A stretch of DNA of 64,000 nucleotides from Polycyclovorans algicola TG408 (GTDB lineage: Bacteria > Pseudomonadota > Gammaproteobacteria > Nevskiales > Nevskiaceae): NCBI RefSeq assembly GCF_000711245.1, contig NZ_JOMH01000001.1, forward strand, positions 1,792,830-1,856,829. Reading direction: 5' to 3'. A model generated the notes under the pieces. The model was not told the origin of the DNA. It saw only the letters and a program-made list of their open reading frames with translations, and did no database searches. Each line of letters opens with the position of its first letter. Positions within the stretch are counted from its first letter, which is position 1. Of the stretch, positions 4,130-58,991 are shown piece after piece. The translations under genes and the position numbers were made by a program.

Positions 4130-5737
4130 ATGATATCAGTAAAAGTACTCGATTGCACCCTGCGTGATGGTGGATATTACAATGCTTGGGATTTTTCGAC
4201 TGAGCTTATACGGCAGTATCTATATGCCATGCAGTCTGCTCAAGTTGACGTCGTTGAGCTGGGTTTCCGGACCTTAAAGAACCAGGGCTTCCAGGGCCCC
4301 TGCGCCTTTACTACCGACAAATTCATCCGAGACGTTAAAATACCATGTGGGTTGACAATAGGCGTTATGATAAACGCTAGTGAGCTTGTCAGTGAAATTC
4401 CTCAAGAGGAGGTGTTGGAACGGTTGTTTCCGAATGTCGCAACAGACTCACCAATCTCATTAGTGCGTGTTGCGTGTCATGTGCATGAGTTTGAAAAATC
4501 ACTTCCGGCTTCTACTTGGCTCAAAGCGCGAGGCTATCAGGTGGGATTCAACTTAATGCAAGTTGCAGATCGGACGGAGAATGAGATTAAGACGCTTGCG
4601 CGTCTGGCCAATAACTATCCCTTAGACGTACTTTATTTTGCAGATAGCATGGGGAGTATGAGCCCCAATCAAACAGCGCAGATATTGCGGTGGTTTCAAA
4701 GTGAATGGACTGGAGCGATGGGTATTCATACACACGATAATCTGGGGCTCGCGCTTTCCAATACCTTACGTGCTTTAGAAGAAGGAGTAACTTGGGTGGA
4801 TTCCACAGTCACTGGCATGGGTCGCGGCCCAGGTAATGCTCGCACAGAGGAGCTCGTCATCGAAGTTGCTGAGCGACGGAGCAAGGCGATGAACTTAATT
4901 CCATTGATGTCGTTAATTCGTGAACACTTTAAGCCGATGCAGGCCAGTTATGGTTGGGGCACAAATGCTTATTACTATCTCGCAGGCAAGTATGGCATTC
5001 ACCCAACTTACGTTCAGGAGATGCTTGGTGACCCCCGCTACAGTGAAGAGGATGTTCTGGCAGTTATTGATCACTTGCGGGTTGTGGGGGGGAAGAAGTA
5101 TAGCCAGAATGCACTCGATGTTGCACGCCACTTTTATCGTGGTCAGGCAAAAGGAAATTGGTCTCCAAAAGCATTGTTTTCTGGCCGTGAAGTGCTACTT
5201 CTAGGTACCGGCCCAGGAGTGGCGAGGCATCGGAGTGCGTTGCAGCGTTATATCATTTCGAAGAGGCCGTTGGTAGTTGCGCTCAATACGCAGAGCGCAA
5301 TAGATGCTGAGTTGGTTGACTTGCGTGTAGCGTGTCACCCGATACGTCTATTAGCGGACAGTGATGTTCACAGAAAACTGCCCCAGCCATTGGTTACTCC
5401 GTATTCCATGTTGCCAAAGCTTGTGCGTGAATCCCTTGGCGATAAAGACGTATTGGACTTTGGTTTAAGCGTAGAAGAGGATCTGTTTGACTTCGCGAAT
5501 ACTCATTGCACAATACCTACATCATTAGTGGTTGCTTACGCTTTGGCTATTGTTACTAGCGGATCAGCTGTGGGTGTATTTATGGCTGGCTTTGATGGCT
5601 ATGGCGCTGACGATCCTCGTAGCCGTGAAATGCAGCAATTGCTGGAAAAATATCAGACTGCTAAAGGGGCATTGCAGATCACCGCAATCACCCCAACCAG
5701 CTATGGGCTGCATACCGAGTCGGTTTACGCGCTCTGA
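4130..5737 (+). CDS. HMGL/DmpG-like aldolase fused to a C-terminal Rossmann-like domain
   Basis: A 535-residue two-part protein. Residues 1-300 are a DRE-TIM aldolase barrel of the 4-hydroxy-2-oxovalerate aldolase type: 'LDCTLRDGGYYNAW' at residues 7-20 carries the RD pair, 'GIHTHDNLGLALSN' carries the metal-binding HxH, and 'GMGRGPGNARTEEL' is the family glycine loop. Known relatives split or form a C-C bond between pyruvate and an aldehyde. Residues about 355-535 begin 'GREVLLLGTGPGV' and contain 'MAGFDGYG', recalling MptE/DUF115-like domains; this part is unassigned. The start has GAGGT seven bases upstream. The CMP-sugar synthetase and HAD phosphatase next to it suggest synthesis of a 2-keto-3-deoxy sugar acid, with this enzyme in place of a NeuB/KdsA-type synthase. 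That is an inference. Confidence 0.75.
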   Translation: MISVKVLDCTLRDGGYYNAWDFSTELIRQYLYAMQSAQVDVVELGFRTLKNQGFQGPCAFTTDKFIRDVKIPCGLTIGVMINASELVSEIPQEEVLERLFPNVATDSPISLVRVACHVHEFEKSLPASTWLKARGYQVGFNLMQVADRTENEIKTLARLANNYPLDVLYFADSMGSMSPNQTAQILRWFQSEWTGAMGIHTHDNLGLALSNTLRALEEGVTWVDSTVTGMGRGPGNARTEELVIEVAERRSKAMNLIPLMSLIREHFKPMQASYGWGTNAYYYLAGKYGIHPTYVQEMLGDPRYSEEDVLAVIDHLRVVGGKKYSQNALDVARHFYRGQAKGNWSPKALFSGREVLLLGTGPGVARHRSALQRYIISKRPLVVALNTQSAIDAELVDLRVACHPIRLLADSDVHRKLPQPLVTPYSMLPKLVRESLGDKDVLDFGLSVEEDLFDFANTHCTIPTSLVVAYALAIVTSGSAVGVFMAGFDGYGADDPRSREMQQLLEKYQTAKGALQITAITPTSYGLHTESVYAL

Positions 5738-5788
5738 GCTGTTTATCCTTGATGCCTTTTTTTTCACAAATATAATTACGAGTCCGTC

Positions 5789-6535
5789 ATGCGTAGTGTG
5801 GTTATAATTCCTGCCCGATATGCTTCTAGTCGATACCCGGGAAAACCTCTGGTGCCACTGCTGGGAAAGCCCATGATTTTATGGGTTGCTGAGCTTTCAG
5901 CCCGTGCTGTGGGCGTGGAGCACGTCTACGTCGCGACCGATGATGGTCGTATTGCCGATGTCGTGGAAATGGCAGGATTCCAGTCGGTTATGACTTCTTG
6001 TGAGGCCCTAACCGGCACCGACCGGCTTGCTCAAGCCGCAAAAAATATAGAGGCCGACATTTATATAAACGTTCAGGGTGATGAACCGCTGGCCGACCCT
6101 TCCGATATCATAAAGGTGCGTAATTCAAAGCTGGCAGCTATGGACATGATTATAAATGGCTTCAGCCGTGTGAGTGACGGCGAAGACCCAAATAGTGTAA
6201 ACATACCCAAAGTAATCACCAACGAGCGAGACGAATTAGTATACATGTCGCGGGTAGCATTGCCGGGTTTTAAGGACGTAAAATGTGCTCCTAGTTATTA
6301 CAAGAAGCAGGTTTGTATTTACGCCTTCACAAGGGAAGAACTAAATATTTTTCATGGCTTTGGTCGTAAAAGTGAACTTGAGCGTGCAGAAGATATAGAA
6401 ATTTTGCGTTTCCTGGAGCTCGGTAGCACTGTAAAAATGGTTGAAACACGGCCGGGTAGCTTGGCGGTGGATGTGCCTGCTGATGTCGCCAAAGTGGAAG
6501 CGTTATTAAATAAGTTTGTTAAGAGTTATAAATGA
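5789..6535 (+). CDS. CMP-Kdo synthetase-like cytidylyltransferase (locus paralogue)
   Basis: A 248-residue CTP-transferase of the KdsB/NeuA group. 'VVIIPARYASSRYPGKPLVPLLGKPM' opens the protein, with the CTP-binding R and PGKP; 'GTDRLAQA' and 'NVQGDEPL' follow, and 'VDVPADVAKVEAL' closes it, all in KdsB order. The family joins a 2-keto sugar acid to CMP, releasing PPi. A second gene of the family, kdsB at 58242, sits with lpxK and msbA and is the better core enzyme. Here the usual H-[IV]-G-[IL]-YAYR block reads 'KKQVCIYAFTREEL', lacking the His-x-Gly, so the acid substrate probably differs from Kdo. It lies 51 bases after the aldolase gene and overlaps the next gene by 4 bases (ATGA). Confidence 0.85.
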   Translation: MRSVVIIPARYASSRYPGKPLVPLLGKPMILWVAELSARAVGVEHVYVATDDGRIADVVEMAGFQSVMTSCEALTGTDRLAQAAKNIEADIYINVQGDEPLADPSDIIKVRNSKLAAMDMIINGFSRVSDGEDPNSVNIPKVITNERDELVYMSRVALPGFKDVKCAPSYYKKQVCIYAFTREELNIFHGFGRKSELERAEDIEILRFLELGSTVKMVETRPGSLAVDVPADVAKVEALLNKFVKSYK

Positions 6536-7227
6536 AGCATCAATTACTAGATTACGCTACTTTAGTGTTTGACTGTGATGGGGTAATTCTGGATTCCAAC
6601 AAAGTTAAAACTGAGGCTTTCTTTCAAGCGACTCTCCCGTATGGTGAGGCCGCTGCGCGGTCCATGATTGACTATCATATTGCAAATGGTGGAGTGTCGC
6701 GCTATAAAAAATTTGCTCACTTTCAGCAGCACATCGTTCGGGCAGAGAGCTCACATAGACAGGCCTCTGATCTGGAAGCCCTGTTGCAGACCTATGCGAG
6801 TCATGTGCGAAAGGGACTCTTATGTTGTAGTTTGGCCCCGAGTTTAGAGGCGCTGCGAAAAGGAAACCCCAGCTCGGTATGGTTAATTGTATCGGGTGGT
6901 GATCAGTCTGAGTTGCGCGACGTATTTAACCAACGCGGCATTTTTGACTGGTTCGATGGAGGCATCTTCGGTAGCCCCGACACCAAAGATGAAATTCTTG
7001 CGCGTGAACTCGTATCCGGAAATATTAAAAGTCCTGCCTTGTTCTTGGGGGATAGCAAGTACGATTACGAGGCTGCAAGGGAAGCGGGCTTAGATTTTGT
7101 GTTCGTAAGCTCCTGGAGTGAGGTAAAAAACTGGCAACATTGGGTGCAAGCAAGCGACATAACCGTGATTGATTCGATTGCATGTCTTTTATCGGGAAGT
7201 CACAAACGCGGTGACGCCAATCATTGA
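6532..7227 (+). CDS. HAD-superfamily phosphatase
   Basis: A 231-residue HAD hydrolase with a helical (C1) cap. Motif I is 'VFDCDGVILDSNK', motif II the Ser of 'LIVSGGDQSE', and motif IV 'LFLGDSKYDYEAAREAG'; the Asp of motif I is the expected nucleophile. Relatives include phosphoglycolate phosphatase and sugar-phosphate phosphatases. The start overlaps the stop of the cytidylyltransferase gene as ATGA, so the two are translationally coupled. In Kdo and sialic-type pathways a phosphatase acts between the aldol step and CMP activation, and this gene fits that position. It is not the short cap-less KdsC type, again pointing away from ordinary Kdo. The substrate is unknown. Confidence 0.8.
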   Translation: MKHQLLDYATLVFDCDGVILDSNKVKTEAFFQATLPYGEAAARSMIDYHIANGGVSRYKKFAHFQQHIVRAESSHRQASDLEALLQTYASHVRKGLLCCSLAPSLEALRKGNPSSVWLIVSGGDQSELRDVFNQRGIFDWFDGGIFGSPDTKDEILARELVSGNIKSPALFLGDSKYDYEAAREAGLDFVFVSSWSEVKNWQHWVQASDITVIDSIACLLSGSHKRGDANH

Positions 7228-7382
7228 AGTATAATTTGTAGTGTCAGGCCAAGGCAGTCAATTAGAGCTGACGCTGGCCCAAGTGTTCGCATGCGCTGCG
7301 AGTAACGCGCCACTTCGCTCTGGATATGTCGTCCGGTTAATTGATCGATGGCAATATCATTGACCATATAAATGTCAAAAAA

Positions 7383-8768
7383 ATGGAGGGAATTATTCTT
7401 ACAGACAATATAGATGATTGTTACACCGAAGATTTCATTGCCAAAGTGAATGAGCATTCCTTCACTACGTCTTCTGATTTCTCGAACGAACTTTTTTTAT
7501 ACTTTTATTTGAAGTTTTCTGAATATTGTGCAATTTTGGGTAAGGGATTGCCCTTGCAAGGGGGTATGAAACGTAGCATAGTGGATTCGGCGATTGTCGT
7601 ACGTGCGCGAAAGGCATGTAATGATGAAGATTCATTTACAAAAATCTTACTTTTAAATACAAAGATCGGCGGCCAATTAATTATTTATCTTCTGCAAACG
7701 CTCGCGCTTTCAATTCTTTTGCCGTTATATTTCTTGTGGAAGACAAGGAAGTACGATTCCATAAGTCAAAAAAAGGAAAAACTTCAATTTATTTATTTGA
7801 TACGATCTGAGGCCTCATATCGTAAATGCAAATTCAGTATTGATGAAGTAAAGTCAGCAATGGTGCTTGTTGATAACTGGCGTGAAATTAATGTCGTTGG
7901 ACACCCAATATACGCAGCCATAACGCTAGGAAACGTTTTAAAGGTAACATTCGAAACGTTATTGTATTCCATTCGAGATATCCGCGCGTTTTTTATTGAT
8001 GGAAATAGAATGCTCGGCATTAGTTGTTCAGCTGCTATTCTTTCTTTCTATTCAAAGAGAATTTCTCATAAAGCGATTTATGAAGCTTGTTTGACTCAAG
8101 TCCTTAGGCTTCATCCTGGGGCGACGTTTATTACGGGAGATAAAGATGATCGTTTCGCGCTAATGCAAACTAGGGTTTGTAAGAAGGCGGATGTCAATCT
8201 TATTTGTTTGCCTCATGGGCTAGAATATGGGTTTAATTTCCCCGGGGGCTTGGCTGGCACTATATTCTTTTGTCTTGCAGAAGAAAGCGCAAATTTTCTG
8301 AGTTCTTTGTACAAAAGCAAAAAATTCTTGTACTCGGAGGAAATTGCAAGGAGTATGTGCGGTGTGAATATTGAAGCAGCTCAAGCTCAGAAAATCAGCA
8401 GGTGTTGTTTTTTTACTGAGCCGCGCGATCCTCAGGTGAATTATGCGATCATAGAATATTTTAGGATGGCAGACTTGGAGATCTCCATTAAGTTGCATCC
8501 ATTAGAGAATGCGGCAATTTATTCACAGAAATTCCCTGATGTGAACCAGATCGCAGATTATTCTGAAGCGATACGTTCATCAGTCTGTGTTGCTAGAAAA
8601 TCGTCAGTTTTACTTGAGGCTTCTATGCGTGGTTCTGCCGCAATCGCCGCTCTTGTAGCGAAGAAGGACCGTGTTTATGTTGAAAAAATATTCCCCTCGC
8701 TTCTCTCTTCGGCTATATCTAGAGCTTATAATTATGCGGAACTTTCCAGCTTAGTCAAAGGCGAGTGA
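7383..8768 (+). CDS. Unclassified GT-B glycosyltransferase, possibly CMP-sugar dependent
   Basis: A 461-residue protein without an obvious named family. Features seen: a hydrophobic stretch near residue 100 ('IIYLLQTLALSILLPLYFLW'), 'ITGDKDDR', 'LPHGLEYG' at about 275-282, 'KLHP' with His at about 372, and near the end 'ARKSSVLLEASMRGSAAIAA'. The HP motif and a later Ser-Ser...Glu-Ala...Gly segment occur in bacterial sialyltransferases and Kdo transferases with a GT-B fold, where they bind the CMP part of the donor. Next to a CMP-sugar synthetase this suggests transfer of the activated acid made by the cassette, which is inference. ATG 7383 is chosen; the frame is open back to TTG 7341, and no good ribosome site is seen for either. 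Very AT-rich. Confidence 0.6.
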   Translation: MEGIILTDNIDDCYTEDFIAKVNEHSFTTSSDFSNELFLYFYLKFSEYCAILGKGLPLQGGMKRSIVDSAIVVRARKACNDEDSFTKILLLNTKIGGQLIIYLLQTLALSILLPLYFLWKTRKYDSISQKKEKLQFIYLIRSEASYRKCKFSIDEVKSAMVLVDNWREINVVGHPIYAAITLGNVLKVTFETLLYSIRDIRAFFIDGNRMLGISCSAAILSFYSKRISHKAIYEACLTQVLRLHPGATFITGDKDDRFALMQTRVCKKADVNLICLPHGLEYGFNFPGGLAGTIFFCLAEESANFLSSLYKSKKFLYSEEIARSMCGVNIEAAQAQKISRCCFFTEPRDPQVNYAIIEYFRMADLEISIKLHPLENAAIYSQKFPDVNQIADYSEAIRSSVCVARKSSVLLEASMRGSAAIAALVAKKDRVYVEKIFPSLLSSAISRAYNYAELSSLVKGE

Positions 8769-8801: not shown

Positions 8802-9830
8802 ATGTTTGCAAATGAAACGTTGCTTATTGTCGGGGGAACTGGGTCCTTTGGTAACGCAGTTCTTGAGCGTTTTATTGAATCCGATTTCAAAGAGATTCGA
8901 ATCTTCAGTCGCGATGAAAAAAAACAAGATGATATGCGCCGTCGATACAGGAGCGATAAATTAAAGTTTTATATTGGTGATGTGCGAGATTATCAATCGG
9001 TGTTGAATGCAGTGCGTGGTGTAGATTTCATCTACCATGCAGCTGCGCTTAAACAGGTCCCGTCCTGTGAATTCCATCCGCTAGAGGCTGTCAAGACCAA
9101 CGTGTTGGGCACTGAGAACGTGCTTGAGTCAGCGATCAATTGCAATGTTAGGCGCGTTGTGGTGTTGAGTACTGACAAGGCGGTATACCCCATCAACGCC
9201 ATGGGTATTAGCAAGGCTATGATGGAAAAGGTAGCGGTGGCCAAATCGCGTAGCGCCAACGGTACGGTTATCAACGTGACGCGCTACGGCAACGTCATGT
9301 GTTCACGCGGGTCGGTCATTCCCCTGTTCGTGAATCAGATCCGCGCCGGGCTGCCAATTACCATTACCGATCCGTCGATGACGCGCTTCATGATGACCTT
9401 GGATGACGCTGTGGACTTGGTGCTCTACGCGTTTCTGCACGGTCAGCCAGGCGAGATTTTTGTGCAGAAAGCGCCCGCAGCGACGATTGAAACCTTGGCC
9501 CATGCCCTGACCGACTTGCTTTGCAAGCCAGAGCATGAGGTGCGCGTCATTGGCACGCGCCACGGTGAGAAGCTCTACGAGGCCTTGCTCAGCCGGGAGG
9601 AGATCGTCGCAGCGGAAGATTTAGGCGGGTATTACCGTGTGCCGCCTGACTTGCGTGATCTGAATTATGACAAGTTTGTGGAGAAGGGGGAAGTCAGAAT
9701 TTCGGCTGCGGCCGACTACAACTCCCATAACACCACGCGCTTGGACGTTGACGGAATGAAAGCATTGCTAATGAAGCTGCGCTTCATGCAGGCCGCCGTC
9801 CGCGGTGAAGTGGTAGAAGCTGAGGAGTGA
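8802..9830 (+). CDS. wbjB: UDP-GlcNAc 4,6-dehydratase/5-epimerase (L-FucNAc pathway, step 1)
   Basis: A 342-residue SDR of the WbjB/FnlA/CapE group. 'LLIVGGTGSFGNAVL' binds NADP, 'YHAAALKQVPSCE' is the family signature, and 'STDKAVYPINAMGISKAMMEK' holds the Ser-Met-Lys form of the catalytic triad usual for soluble inverting dehydratases. It makes UDP-2-acetamido-2,6-dideoxy-L-arabino-4-hexulose from UDP-GlcNAc. wbjC and wbjD follow at 4 and 2 bases, forming a complete UDP-L-FucNAc pathway. Base composition changes inside the gene: the first 300 bases are AT-rich like the genes before it, and the rest is GC-rich like those after it. This suggests a recombination joint near 9.1 kb. Confidence 0.92.
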   Translation: MFANETLLIVGGTGSFGNAVLERFIESDFKEIRIFSRDEKKQDDMRRRYRSDKLKFYIGDVRDYQSVLNAVRGVDFIYHAAALKQVPSCEFHPLEAVKTNVLGTENVLESAINCNVRRVVVLSTDKAVYPINAMGISKAMMEKVAVAKSRSANGTVINVTRYGNVMCSRGSVIPLFVNQIRAGLPITITDPSMTRFMMTLDDAVDLVLYAFLHGQPGEIFVQKAPAATIETLAHALTDLLCKPEHEVRVIGTRHGEKLYEALLSREEIVAAEDLGGYYRVPPDLRDLNYDKFVEKGEVRISAAADYNSHNTTRLDVDGMKALLMKLRFMQAAVRGEVVEAEE

Positions 9831-9834
9831 CGAA

Positions 9835-10968
9835 ATGACTGCGCCTCCCCTCCGTGTTTTAATCACTGGAGCCAACGGTTTTCTTGGCAGGAACCTTTCG
9901 GTTCGCTTGGAGGAGCTGCCTGGCTTCAGCGTGCTCCCCTTTGTGCGTGGTGATGACGCAGGGGGGTTGCCAGGACTGGTCGCAGAATGCGATGCGGTTG
10001 TTCACCTTGCCGGTGAAAACCGCCCACAGGACGAGGCGGCCTTTGCCCAGGTCAATACGTGGCTCACGGTGGCGCTATGCGAGGCGATTGCACAAGTTAT
10101 GCTCCAAAAAGGGCGGGCCATTCCTTTGTTGATGGCGTCCACCACCCAGGCGGATCGCGACAACGCGTATGGCTGCAGCAAGCTTGCCGCCGAGCACGCA
10201 GTACAGGCATTGGCAGAGAAAACGAGCAATCCCTGCGTGGTGTTTCGCCTGCCTGGCGTTTTTGGTAAGTGGTGCAGGCCCAACTACAACTCCGTGGTGG
10301 CGACTTTTTGTCACAACATTGCGCGTGGCTTGCCGATACAGGTCAACGACCCTGCAGCTGCCGTGCAACTGGTGTACGTGGATGATGTGGTTTCCGCCTT
10401 CATACGCGCCCTGGAAGCCCCGGCTGAGGGCCTGGTGCGAGGCGTCGTTCAGCCGGAATATCGCGTGACGCTGGGCGAGTTAGTGGCGCAGATTCGCGCC
10501 TTTGGTCAGTGCCGCACCAGTCTACTAACTGAGCGAGTGGGCACGGGCTTCGTAAGAGCGTTGTATGCCACTTACGTTAGCTACCTGCCCAACGAGAAGT
10601 TCTCCTATGAGGTGCCGCAGCACGCGGACCCGCGCGGCGTCTTTGTGGAAATGCTAAAGACGCCAGACAGCGGACAGTTTTCGTTCTTCACCGCTCACCC
10701 CGGGGTAACACGCGGCGGGCATTACCACCACACCAAGACTGAGAAGTTTCTGGTCGTCAAGGGCGTGGCGCTGTTCCGCTTCCGCCATTTGCTAACCGGG
10801 GAGCAGGTTGAGTTGCGCACTTATGGGGACAAGCCTGTGGTGGTGGATACGATTCCTGGCTGGGTGCATGACATCACCAACGTCGGGGGCGACGAGATGG
10901 TGGTGATGCTGTGGGCCAATGAGAACTTTGATCGAGACCGCCCGGACACCATCGCCAGCAGGCTTTAA
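9835..10968 (+). CDS. wbjC: UDP-L-FucNAc pathway reductase/epimerase
   Basis: A 377-residue two-domain enzyme of the WbjC/FnlB/CapF family. Residues 1-250 are an NADPH-binding SDR ('[14 protein letters not shown]', Tyr-Lys in '[12 protein letters not shown]'). Residues about 265-377 form a cupin with the metal-binding pattern '[15 protein letters not shown]', then '[17 protein letters not shown]'. Known members epimerise C3 in the cupin and reduce C4 in the SDR domain, giving UDP-6-deoxy-L-talose-NAc. GAGGAG lies 8 bases before ATG 9835. It sits between wbjB and wbjD in the usual order. Both domains appear intact. Confidence 0.93.
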
Positions 10969-10970
10969 AA

Positions 10971-12101
10971 ATGAAAAAACTCAAAGTGATGTCGGTGGTC
11001 GGGACGCGGCCAGAGATCATTCGTTTGTCTCGTGTGATGGCGGCTCTTGATCGCAACTGCGACCATGTGCTGGTACACACCTGCCAGAATTATGACTACG
11101 AACTCAACCAGATCTTTTTTAATGATCTGGGCATCCGAAAGCCCGATCACTTCTTGAATGCTGCAGGTGCGACGGGCGCCGAGACCATCGGCAAGGTCAT
11201 CATCGCGGTTGACCAGGTGCTGGCTATGGTGCAACCCGAGGCCATGCTGGTCTTAGGTGATACCAATAGCTGTCTGTCGGTGATCCCGGCCAAGCGGCGC
11301 AAGATCCCGACCTTTCATATGGAGGCCGGCAATCGCTGCTTCGACATGCGGGTGCCGGAGGAGATCAACCGCCGGATCGTCGACCACACGGCGGATATTA
11401 ATCTCACCTACAGCACTATCGCCCGGGACTATCTGCTGCGAGAGGGGCTGCCACCGGATCTGGTGATCAAGACCGGCAGCCCGATGTTTGAGGTGCTGCA
11501 GCACTACCTCAGCAAGATTGTGGCTTCCGACGTGCTGGTTCGGCTGGGCTTGGAGGCCGAGCGATTCTTCGTGGTAAGCGCGCACCGGGAGGAGAACGTC
11601 GACTCGCACCGCAACTTCTTGCGCCTGGTCGAGACACTGAATGCGATCGCTGAGACTTACGACCACCCAGTGATCGTGTCCACCCATCCGCGAACGCAGA
11701 AGCGGGTGGATGCCATGAACATCCAGTTTGACCCGCGTGTGCGCCTACTCAAGCCACTGGGCTTTACCGACTACAACCACCTGCAAATGCAGGCCAAGGC
11801 GGTTCTGTCTGACAGCGGCACCATCAATGAGGAGTCCTCCATCCTCAACTTTCCAGCACTCAACATTCGCGAAGCCCACGAGCGGCCTGAGGGCATGGAA
11901 GAGGCCGCGGTGATGATGACCGGGCTGGGCGTGGAGCGGGTGCTGCAGGGGCTGCAGGTGTTGGAGGGACAGTCGCGTGGCGAAGAACGCTCGTTGCGTC
12001 TTGTGGCGGACTACAGCATGCCTAACGTGAGTGAAAAGGTGGTACGGATTATCCTGAGCTATACCGACTATGTGAAGCGTGTGGTGTGGAAGCAGTTTTA
12101 G
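10971..12101 (+). CDS. wbjD: UDP-GlcNAc 2-epimerase-like, forms UDP-L-FucNAc
   Basis: A 376-residue GT-B-fold epimerase of the WecB family, WbjD/FnlC/CapG branch. '[15 protein letters not shown]' is the N-terminal signature, '[20 protein letters not shown]' the catalytic loop, and '[10 protein letters not shown]' and '[11 protein letters not shown]' bind the UDP. It catalyses the last step, C2 epimerisation to UDP-N-acetyl-L-fucosamine. The gene starts 2 bases after wbjC, and its TAG stop shares one base with the GTG start of the next glycosyltransferase. Length and motifs are complete. Confidence 0.93.
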
Positions 12102-58245: not shown

Positions 58246-58991
58246 GTGTTGCGTTCAAGGTGGTCATCCCGGCGCGGCTGAACAGCGCGCGTCTGCCCGG
58301 CAAGGTGCTGCTGCCGATCCTGGGCAAGCCGATGATCGAGCACGTCTGGCGCGCTGCCTGCGCCAGTGGCGCCGACGAAATCCTCATCGCCACCGACGAT
58401 GCGCGCGTGGCGAGCGCCGCGCAGGGCTTTGGCGCGACGGTGGTGATGACCCGTGCTGCGCATCAATCCGGCACCGACCGGTTGGCCGATGTGGCCGTGC
58501 AGCGCGGCTGGGCCGATGACGTGCTGATCGTCAACCTTCAGGGCGACGAGCCGCTGATGCCGCCCGCCTTGCTGGACGCGGCGGCGGCGCTGCTGGCCGC
58601 TGACCGCACGGCCGATATCGCCACCTTTGCCCATCCGCTCACGGCGGCGGACGACTTTGCCAACCCTAACGTCGTCAAGGTGGTGCGCGACGCGCGCGGC
58701 CATGCGCTGTACTTCTCACGCGCCGCCATTCCGTACTGGCGCGACGGCGGCGGTCAGCCACCCGGCGCGCCGTCGGCGCTGCGCCACATCGGGCTGTACG
58801 CCTATCGTGTCGCTGCCTTGAAAGCCTTCAGCGCCTTGCCGCCTGCACCGCTCGAAGCCTGCGAGGCGCTGGAGCAACTGCGCGCGCTGACCCACGGGTT
58901 GCGCATCCACGTCGGCTTGCTGGAGACCCCGCCGCCGCACGGCGTCGACACCCAGGCCGACCTTGAGGCGGTCATCAACCGGCTGTCATGA
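58242..58991 (+). CDS. kdsB: CMP-Kdo synthetase (core LPS copy)
   Basis: A 249-residue KdsB. '[25 protein letters not shown]' binds CTP, '[10 protein letters not shown]' and '[10 protein letters not shown]' follow, '[17 protein letters not shown]' keeps the H-x-G-x-YAYR block, and '[15 protein letters not shown]' ends the protein. It makes CMP-Kdo for the inner core. GTG 58242 overlaps the stop of the Trm112 gene (GTGA). The window has a second, divergent family member at 5789 in the O-antigen locus. The last 6 bases overlap, convergently, the TerC-CorC gene. Confidence 0.95.

Follow-up and report, generated by a model that had tools for sequence, protein, structure and literature searches.

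In a 64,000-nucleotide stretch of the genome of Polycyclovorans algicola TG408 (the window, as the whole stretch is called here), three consecutive genes of an O-antigen locus encode a two-domain aldolase, a KdsB-like cytidylyltransferase and a phosphatase of the HAD family, which together probably form a dedicated three-enzyme route to one or more 2-keto-3-deoxy sugar acids activated with cytidine monophosphate (CMP). CMP-activated sugar acids, such as 3-deoxy-manno-octulosonic acid (Kdo) and the sialic, legionaminic and pseudaminic acids, shape surface antigens and phage receptors. In the textbook routes to them, phosphoenolpyruvate (PEP) is condensed with an aldose. An original prediction, made from the letters of the window, had proposed that an aldolase acts here instead of the PEP-dependent synthases NeuB and KdsA, followed by dephosphorylation and CMP activation. 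This is the best-supported reading, given the conserved neighbourhood of the genes, the occurrence of fusions, the lack of an accompanying PEP synthase and the altered sugar-side positions of the cytidylyltransferase, and it holds for a module of three genes rather than for the set of four that had been put forward. The genes concerned, together with a housekeeping comparator, are the following.

4130-5737, + strand: aldolase gene, 535 amino acids, two domains, stop-free open reading frame (ORF)
4130..5134, + strand: aldolase N-terminal domain (residues 1-335), DRE-TIM/HMGL-like metal aldolase, DmpG-like, with R12, D13, H200, H202, Y16 and H291
5162..5737, + strand: aldolase C-terminal domain (residues ~345-535), with the fold of Maf, MptE, SteA and GT42 sialyltransferases
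5789..6535, + strand: KdsB-like cytidylyltransferase of a separate clade, 248 amino acids, with K162, Q174 and I205 at the positions of E. coli KdsB R164, H181 and Q211
6532..7227, + strand: HAD-IA phosphatase, 231 amino acids, PF00702, with D14, D16, S121, K152, D174 and D178
7341..8768, + strand: orphan glycosyltransferase candidate, 475 amino acids, TTG start, GT-B-like by motif, putative transferase of the CMP-activated acid
58251..58967, + strand: housekeeping KdsB, canonical comparator carrying Arg-His-Gln

As predicted, the first four genes are collinear ORFs on the + strand, free of stops, and the ATGA overlap lies between genes 2 and 3 (cytidylyltransferase and HAD) at 6532-6535. The assignments of the first three products also stand: the aldolase is DmpG/HMGL-like (PF00682 in a profile search, E 1.2e-28; nearest solved relatives 3dxi and DmpG), the 5789 product matches PF02348 (E 8.4e-35) and passes the NCBIfam KdsB subfamily model NF009905 (263.6 against 255 bits) but stays below the KdsB equivalog TIGR00466 (130 against 155.2 bits), and gene 3 carries PF00702 and a full HAD motif set. 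For gene 4, read as a GT-B protein with an HP motif, the motif is present and the family assignment finds no match. The prediction overlooked the second domain of the aldolase (345-535, Maf/GT42-like fold) and the aldolase–cytidylyltransferase fusions of viral contigs.

Neighbourhood and fusion of the three enzymes

Loci were collected with the aldolase query alone, 80 from species genomes and four from a whole-genome search, of which 82 were usable, and expected counts come from shuffles of the gene order inside each locus. Within one gene of the aldolase, a cytidylyltransferase is present in 51 of the 82 loci (11.6 expected), within two genes in 64 (22.4 expected) and within five in 70, while a HAD lies within two genes in 46 (15.3 expected) and within five in 57. 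With tblastn, further cytidylyltransferases, either missed by ORF calling or fused, were found in L056, L066, L097 and L110, which brings the count to 74 of 82; the seeming absence of the enzyme in L056, L066 and L097 was thereby rejected as an ORF-calling artefact. Among the hosts of the module are Halomonas, Marinobacter, Pseudomonas, Idiomarina, Alteromonas, Roseovarius, Magnetospirillum, Prochlorococcus, SAR11, Bacillus, Rossellomorea, Bacteroidota and Omnitrophota, and a Leisingera plasmid carries the same three genes under the annotations 'aldolase catalytic domain-containing protein', '3-deoxy-manno-octulosonate cytidylyltransferase' and 'HAD family hydrolase'. In a sample of 273 further genomes from the class, five encode the full-length aldolase, and in all five a cytidylyltransferase gene is next to it or one gene off. 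Within the order, the aldolase was detected in two of 84 other genomes; it was absent from the two other genomes of the genus searched, and a search of E. coli gave no match. This sparse scatter across class, order and genus is the pattern of a horizontally moving O-antigen cassette.

Several loci depart from the common arrangement. An extra aldolase of HpcH/HpaI type, a second pyruvate-aldolase family, is encoded in L034 (7868-8629), L035, L040, L046, L057, L076 and L082, and in the first four of these its gene directly follows the aldolase and precedes a cytidylyltransferase. In SAR11 loci L074, L075 and L105, the two-domain aldolase is followed by a radical-SAM-like protein and not by a cytidylyltransferase and HAD. 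The aldolases of L111, L113, L152 and L153 (Streptomyces, Mesorhizobium) match the N-terminal domain only; that of Streptomyces is followed by a HAD-like match, and no cytidylyltransferase was seen there.

The association extends to single polypeptides. A scan of viral contigs (L167-L228) returned 63 loci, 39 of which encode aldolase and cytidylyltransferase as one ORF, amounting to 28 distinct proteins of mostly 537-589 amino acids (for instance L173:5998-7695, which sits inside a glycosyltransferase cluster, and L171:6001-7713). The cytidylyltransferase is fused or adjacent in 50 of the 63 loci, and a small HAD-like protein is present in 37. Aldolase residues D13, H200, H202 and H291 are kept in all 28 distinct fusions, and 26 carry the Lys-Gln-Ile (K-Q-I) signature of the cytidylyltransferase described below. 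With regard to the 18 fusion-bearing viral records examined, seven encode a T4 Gp23 capsid protein and six a terminase; an aldolase search of phage records gave no match. A Bacteroidetes single-cell short contig (L110:1118-2896), which may itself be phage DNA, encodes a further fusion of aldolase and K-Q-I cytidylyltransferase, of 592 amino acids. An HP-motif protein lies upstream of the L110 fusion and a small HAD downstream. One MptE/GT42-like protein has relatives in 25 of the viral loci, and also in L058, L059, L081 and L098, which are bacterial module loci. That T4-like phage contigs encode the fused protein close to an MptE/GT42-like transferase suggests synthesis and transfer of an acidic sugar by the phages themselves.

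The cross-phylum neighbourhood and the single-polypeptide fusions thus support the view that the three enzymes work as a unit, and chance neighbours are rejected by the shuffles and the fusions.

Features of the enzymes and the proposed route

The full-length aldolase was modelled with AlphaFold2 from 67 sequences, with a mean predicted local distance difference test (pLDDT) of 92.7. The best fold match of the model is 3dxi (Z 38.0, 2.2 Å over 297 residues), and DmpG (1nvm) also matches (Z 32.9, 3.0 Å over 319 residues). Residues R12, D13, H200, H202, D172, N236 and W276 are invariant in all 67 homologues, with Y16 present in 66 and H291 in 64, and in a sequence alignment R12, D13, H200 and H202 fall on the metal- and pyruvate-binding residues of DmpG. 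The score of the aldolase against the DmpG/BphI equivalog TIGR03217 is below the cut-off (108 against 286 bits).

In the cytidylyltransferase, the residues that bind cytidine triphosphate (CTP) and metal are kept (R10, R15, K19, Q98, D100, R157, E210 and D235 in E. coli KdsB numbering). E. coli positions 164, 181 and 211, which we take to be direct Kdo contacts, are Arg-His-Gln (R-H-Q) in every canonical KdsB compared and in KpsU; an exact K-Q-I stands there in 40 of the 49 KdsB-like proteins of bacterial module loci, the exceptions being two near-variants, extra copies or enzymes of HpcH-type loci. In the tree, the K-Q-I proteins group with the two near-variants in a single clade of 45 members. 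In an unbiased sample of the class, the three nearest KdsB-like matches are all K-Q-I and all adjoin an aldolase, while the fourth has the canonical His and does not lie beside one; since the KdsB-like protein of G093, a genome devoid of the module, has the canonical His, the K-Q-I rule is unbroken. Judged by its residues, CYTIDYLYLTRANSFERASE is not an ordinary KdsB, and with K-Q-I in place of R-H-Q the substrate of the 5789 product is probably not Kdo.

The 6532 product contains all HAD motifs (the DxD nucleophile/acid, Ser, Lys and GDxxxD), and these residues are conserved in 55 module HADs. The fourth slot is less constant. The 7341 product has motifs PHG (291-293), KLHP (384-387) and RKSSVLLEA (419-427), with PHG, HP and RKS..LLEA invariant across three homologues, and no clear Pfam, NCBIfam or PDB sequence match was found for it. 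Just two of the surveyed loci, L045 and L055 (Idiomarina seosinensis and Rossellomorea aquimaris), contain a homologue of it, in both beside the module, and it was detected in one of 369 class genomes and in no other. The protein downstream of the module varies, being MptE-like in 4 of 32 cases, a GT29 sialyltransferase in 2 and polysialyltransferase-like in 2, with ordinary GT2 and GT4 proteins also present. The cross-genome neighbourhood survey hence did not bear out the predicted conservation of four genes: the core is three, with a variable fourth.

With regard to PEP-dependent synthases, the prediction that no NeuB or KdsA would be found at the locus proved right: the whole host genome (3.65 Mb, one contig) has no NeuB, and its single KdsA is encoded about 1.6 Mb away. 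KdsA was found in one of the surveyed loci and NeuB in nine.

In the proposed route, the metal-dependent N-terminal domain would add pyruvate to a phosphorylated aldose of central metabolism, giving a 2-keto-3-deoxy acid phosphate with no need for a PEP synthase of NeuB/KdsA type. The HAD enzyme, as its fold and motifs suggest, would then take off the phosphate, and the KdsB-like enzyme, with its conserved catalytic side and a sugar side unlike that of KdsB, would join the free acid to CMP. Finally, a CMP-sugar-acid transferase would attach the acid to the glycan; the 7341 product and the aldolase's own Maf/GT42-like C-terminal domain, alone or together, are the most likely candidates here. 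The gene content yields no named aldehyde acceptor; the occurrence of the same three enzymes in unrelated hosts, with no recurring sugar-modifying gene, suggests a common aldose phosphate as the probable acceptor.

Alternative explanations

The first alternative is a version of the three-enzyme route and compatible with it: the C-terminal domain would be the actual transferase, so that the 4130 protein acts at both the first and the last step and the 7341 product on another sugar. Foldseek and VIA runs on the full aldolase model gave the N-terminal domain only, and the C-terminal domain was therefore modelled separately (pLDDT 96, predicted template modelling score 0.91, AlphaFold2). Its top match is the Maf flagellin glycosyltransferase 5mu5 (Z 13.8, 3.3 Å, 180 of 191 residues), and it also resembles the sialyltransferase CstII (Z 11.5); Maf and CstII are transferases of CMP-activated sugar acids. 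Moreover, G487, D489 and G490 are conserved. However, SteA (Z 12.7) and the MptE-type kinase 8sd5 (Z 12.4), neither of which is a glycosyltransferase, match nearly as well, and the Pfam MptE-like model PF01973 is weakly matched by 13 of 31 members (best 1.7e-6). The sequence alignment with CstII is weak and covers a 32-residue stretch only, and a catalytic His could not be assigned. Furthermore, the domain is missing from the viral fusions and L110, and a separate MptE/GT42-like protein is encoded in the viral loci. The domain could be a transferase, a regulator that binds CMP or CTP, or kinase-like, and the version in which it transfers the acid seems unlikely.

Another explanation is that the KdsB-like enzyme activates Kdo from the housekeeping KdsA, or a derivative of it, for the O unit, while the aldolase makes some other substituent. 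The window genome does have KdsA, KdsD and KdsB, the 5789 product clears the NF009905 cut-off, and KdsA lies near the module in the Gram-positive Bacillus sp. ISL-41. In that locus (L099), KdsA and KdsD are encoded within about 7 kb of the module, as is another KdsB-like protein, which has Lys-Phe-Ser at the diagnostic positions. Against this, K-Q-I replaces R-H-Q at three positions of the C-terminal domain, the part of KdsB that holds Kdo (PMC3149649). Rossellomorea aquimaris, also Gram-positive, has the module, and searches there for NeuB, KdsA and KdsD gave only DAHP-synthase-like and SIS-domain matches, so that the module is kept there without need for PEP-made Kdo or arabinose 5-phosphate. 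Additionally, the fusion of aldolase and cytidylyltransferase argues that the aldolase makes what gets activated. Plain Kdo supply was rejected on account of Rossellomorea and the altered cytidylyltransferase, and the explanation as a whole appears improbable.

Equally improbable in our estimate, the HMGL-like domain could be a Claisen-type or other synthase, using acetyl-CoA or another enolate, or a lyase, with a product that is not a simple 3-deoxy-2-keto acid. The fold is common to isopropylmalate, citramalate and homocitrate synthases and HMG-CoA lyase, and the DmpG pair His21/Tyr291 is exchanged, Tyr16 and His291 standing at the aligned positions. In BphI, Tyr-290, at the position of the exchanged Tyr, sets the stereochemistry at C4 (PMC3962088). 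However, in both sequence and fold the domain is closest to 3dxi and the DmpG-type pyruvate aldolases, with the synthases fitting less well in fold (Z 27 or less, against 38 and 33), and the fusion partner comes from a family that activates keto sugar acids. That the association is a by-product of shared polysaccharide loci is hardly credible: all loci are surface-polysaccharide clusters with many rearrangements, but the proximity is well over that of within-locus shuffles and the fusion in 39 viral loci contradicts it.

Some observations weigh against the three-enzyme route to a CMP-activated acid. Its support is computational, consisting of gene association, fusions, both aldolase folds, catalytic-residue conservation, the KdsB-like clade and the absence of NeuB, and support for the K-Q-I clade in the tree is moderate (0.74). 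A NeuA-like cytidylyltransferase is present in 23 loci, with a KdsB-like enzyme only in 37, and the product may thus differ among genomes. At least 14 of the 70 loci with a cytidylyltransferase have no recognisable HAD, the extra HpcH/HpaI aldolases of seven loci are unexplained by a single pyruvate aldolase, and the exchange of the DmpG catalytic pair means that the chemistry could differ.

Locus setting, significance and comparison with known systems

The predicted O-antigen setting is confirmed by the genes downstream of the module, which lie outside it.

8802..12101, + strand: O-antigen neighbours, namely an FnlA-like dehydratase/epimerase, a WbcJ/FnlB-like reductase and a UDP-GlcNAc 2-epimerase (UDP-L-FucNAc type)

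Together with a sugar transferase and Wzz, also encoded downstream in the window, these genes make O-antigen locus a fair description.

If the proposed route is true, a pyruvate-type aldolase module would be another entry into CMP-sugar-acid chemistry. It would account for a family annotated merely as 'aldolase catalytic domain-containing protein', and would supply a phosphatase- and CMP-coupled enzyme set for synthesis. A broader claim, which we advance tentatively and regard as doubtful, is that of a third route to CMP-activated ulosonic acids beside those of KdsA and NeuB, present in several bacterial phyla, with a bifunctional aldolase–cytidylyltransferase in T4-like phages, one or more CMP-sugar acids so far undescribed, and a bacterial fusion of aldolase and Maf/GT42-type domain that starts and ends the pathway. 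No account of an aldolase/cytidylyltransferase route was found in the searched open-access papers; subscription literature lay outside the search, and an earlier description is possible.

Among known systems, the Kdo pathway (KdsD, KdsA, KdsC, KdsB and a Kdo transferase) shares with the module the joining of a three-carbon unit to a sugar phosphate, dephosphorylation by a HAD, CMP activation by an enzyme of KdsB fold and CMP-dependent transfer. In the module, a single metal aldolase apparently replaces KdsA and KdsD, the HAD is of the capped IA type and not KdsC, and K-Q-I stands in place of R-H-Q. The nonulosonic acid pathways (NeuB/LegI/PseI, NeuA, and a sialyltransferase or Maf) likewise lead to a CMP-activated keto-deoxy acid, and have further counterparts in the NeuA-like enzyme of some module loci and in the sialyltransferase- and Maf-like folds. 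They differ in that NeuB is absent from the window genome and found in few module loci, and that the module has no recurrent sugar-nucleotide-modifying gene.

With regard to the aldolase, the DmpG/BphI 4-hydroxy-2-oxovalerate aldolases, class II pyruvate aldolases, have the same TIM barrel and Arg-Asp-His-His metal/pyruvate site, whereas the window protein has Tyr16/His291, a sub-equivalog score, the extra Maf/GT42-like domain and a cytidylyltransferase as partner. The closest relative by sequence and fold is 3dxi (BVU_2661, a putative aldolase of Bacteroides vulgatus described by structure only), which has the CTLRDGGYY motif in common with the window aldolase but a Pro aligned to His291. Maf 5mu5 and CstII (GT42) share the fold of the C-terminal domain, which in the window is fused to an aldolase and in which their catalytic residues are unmatched.

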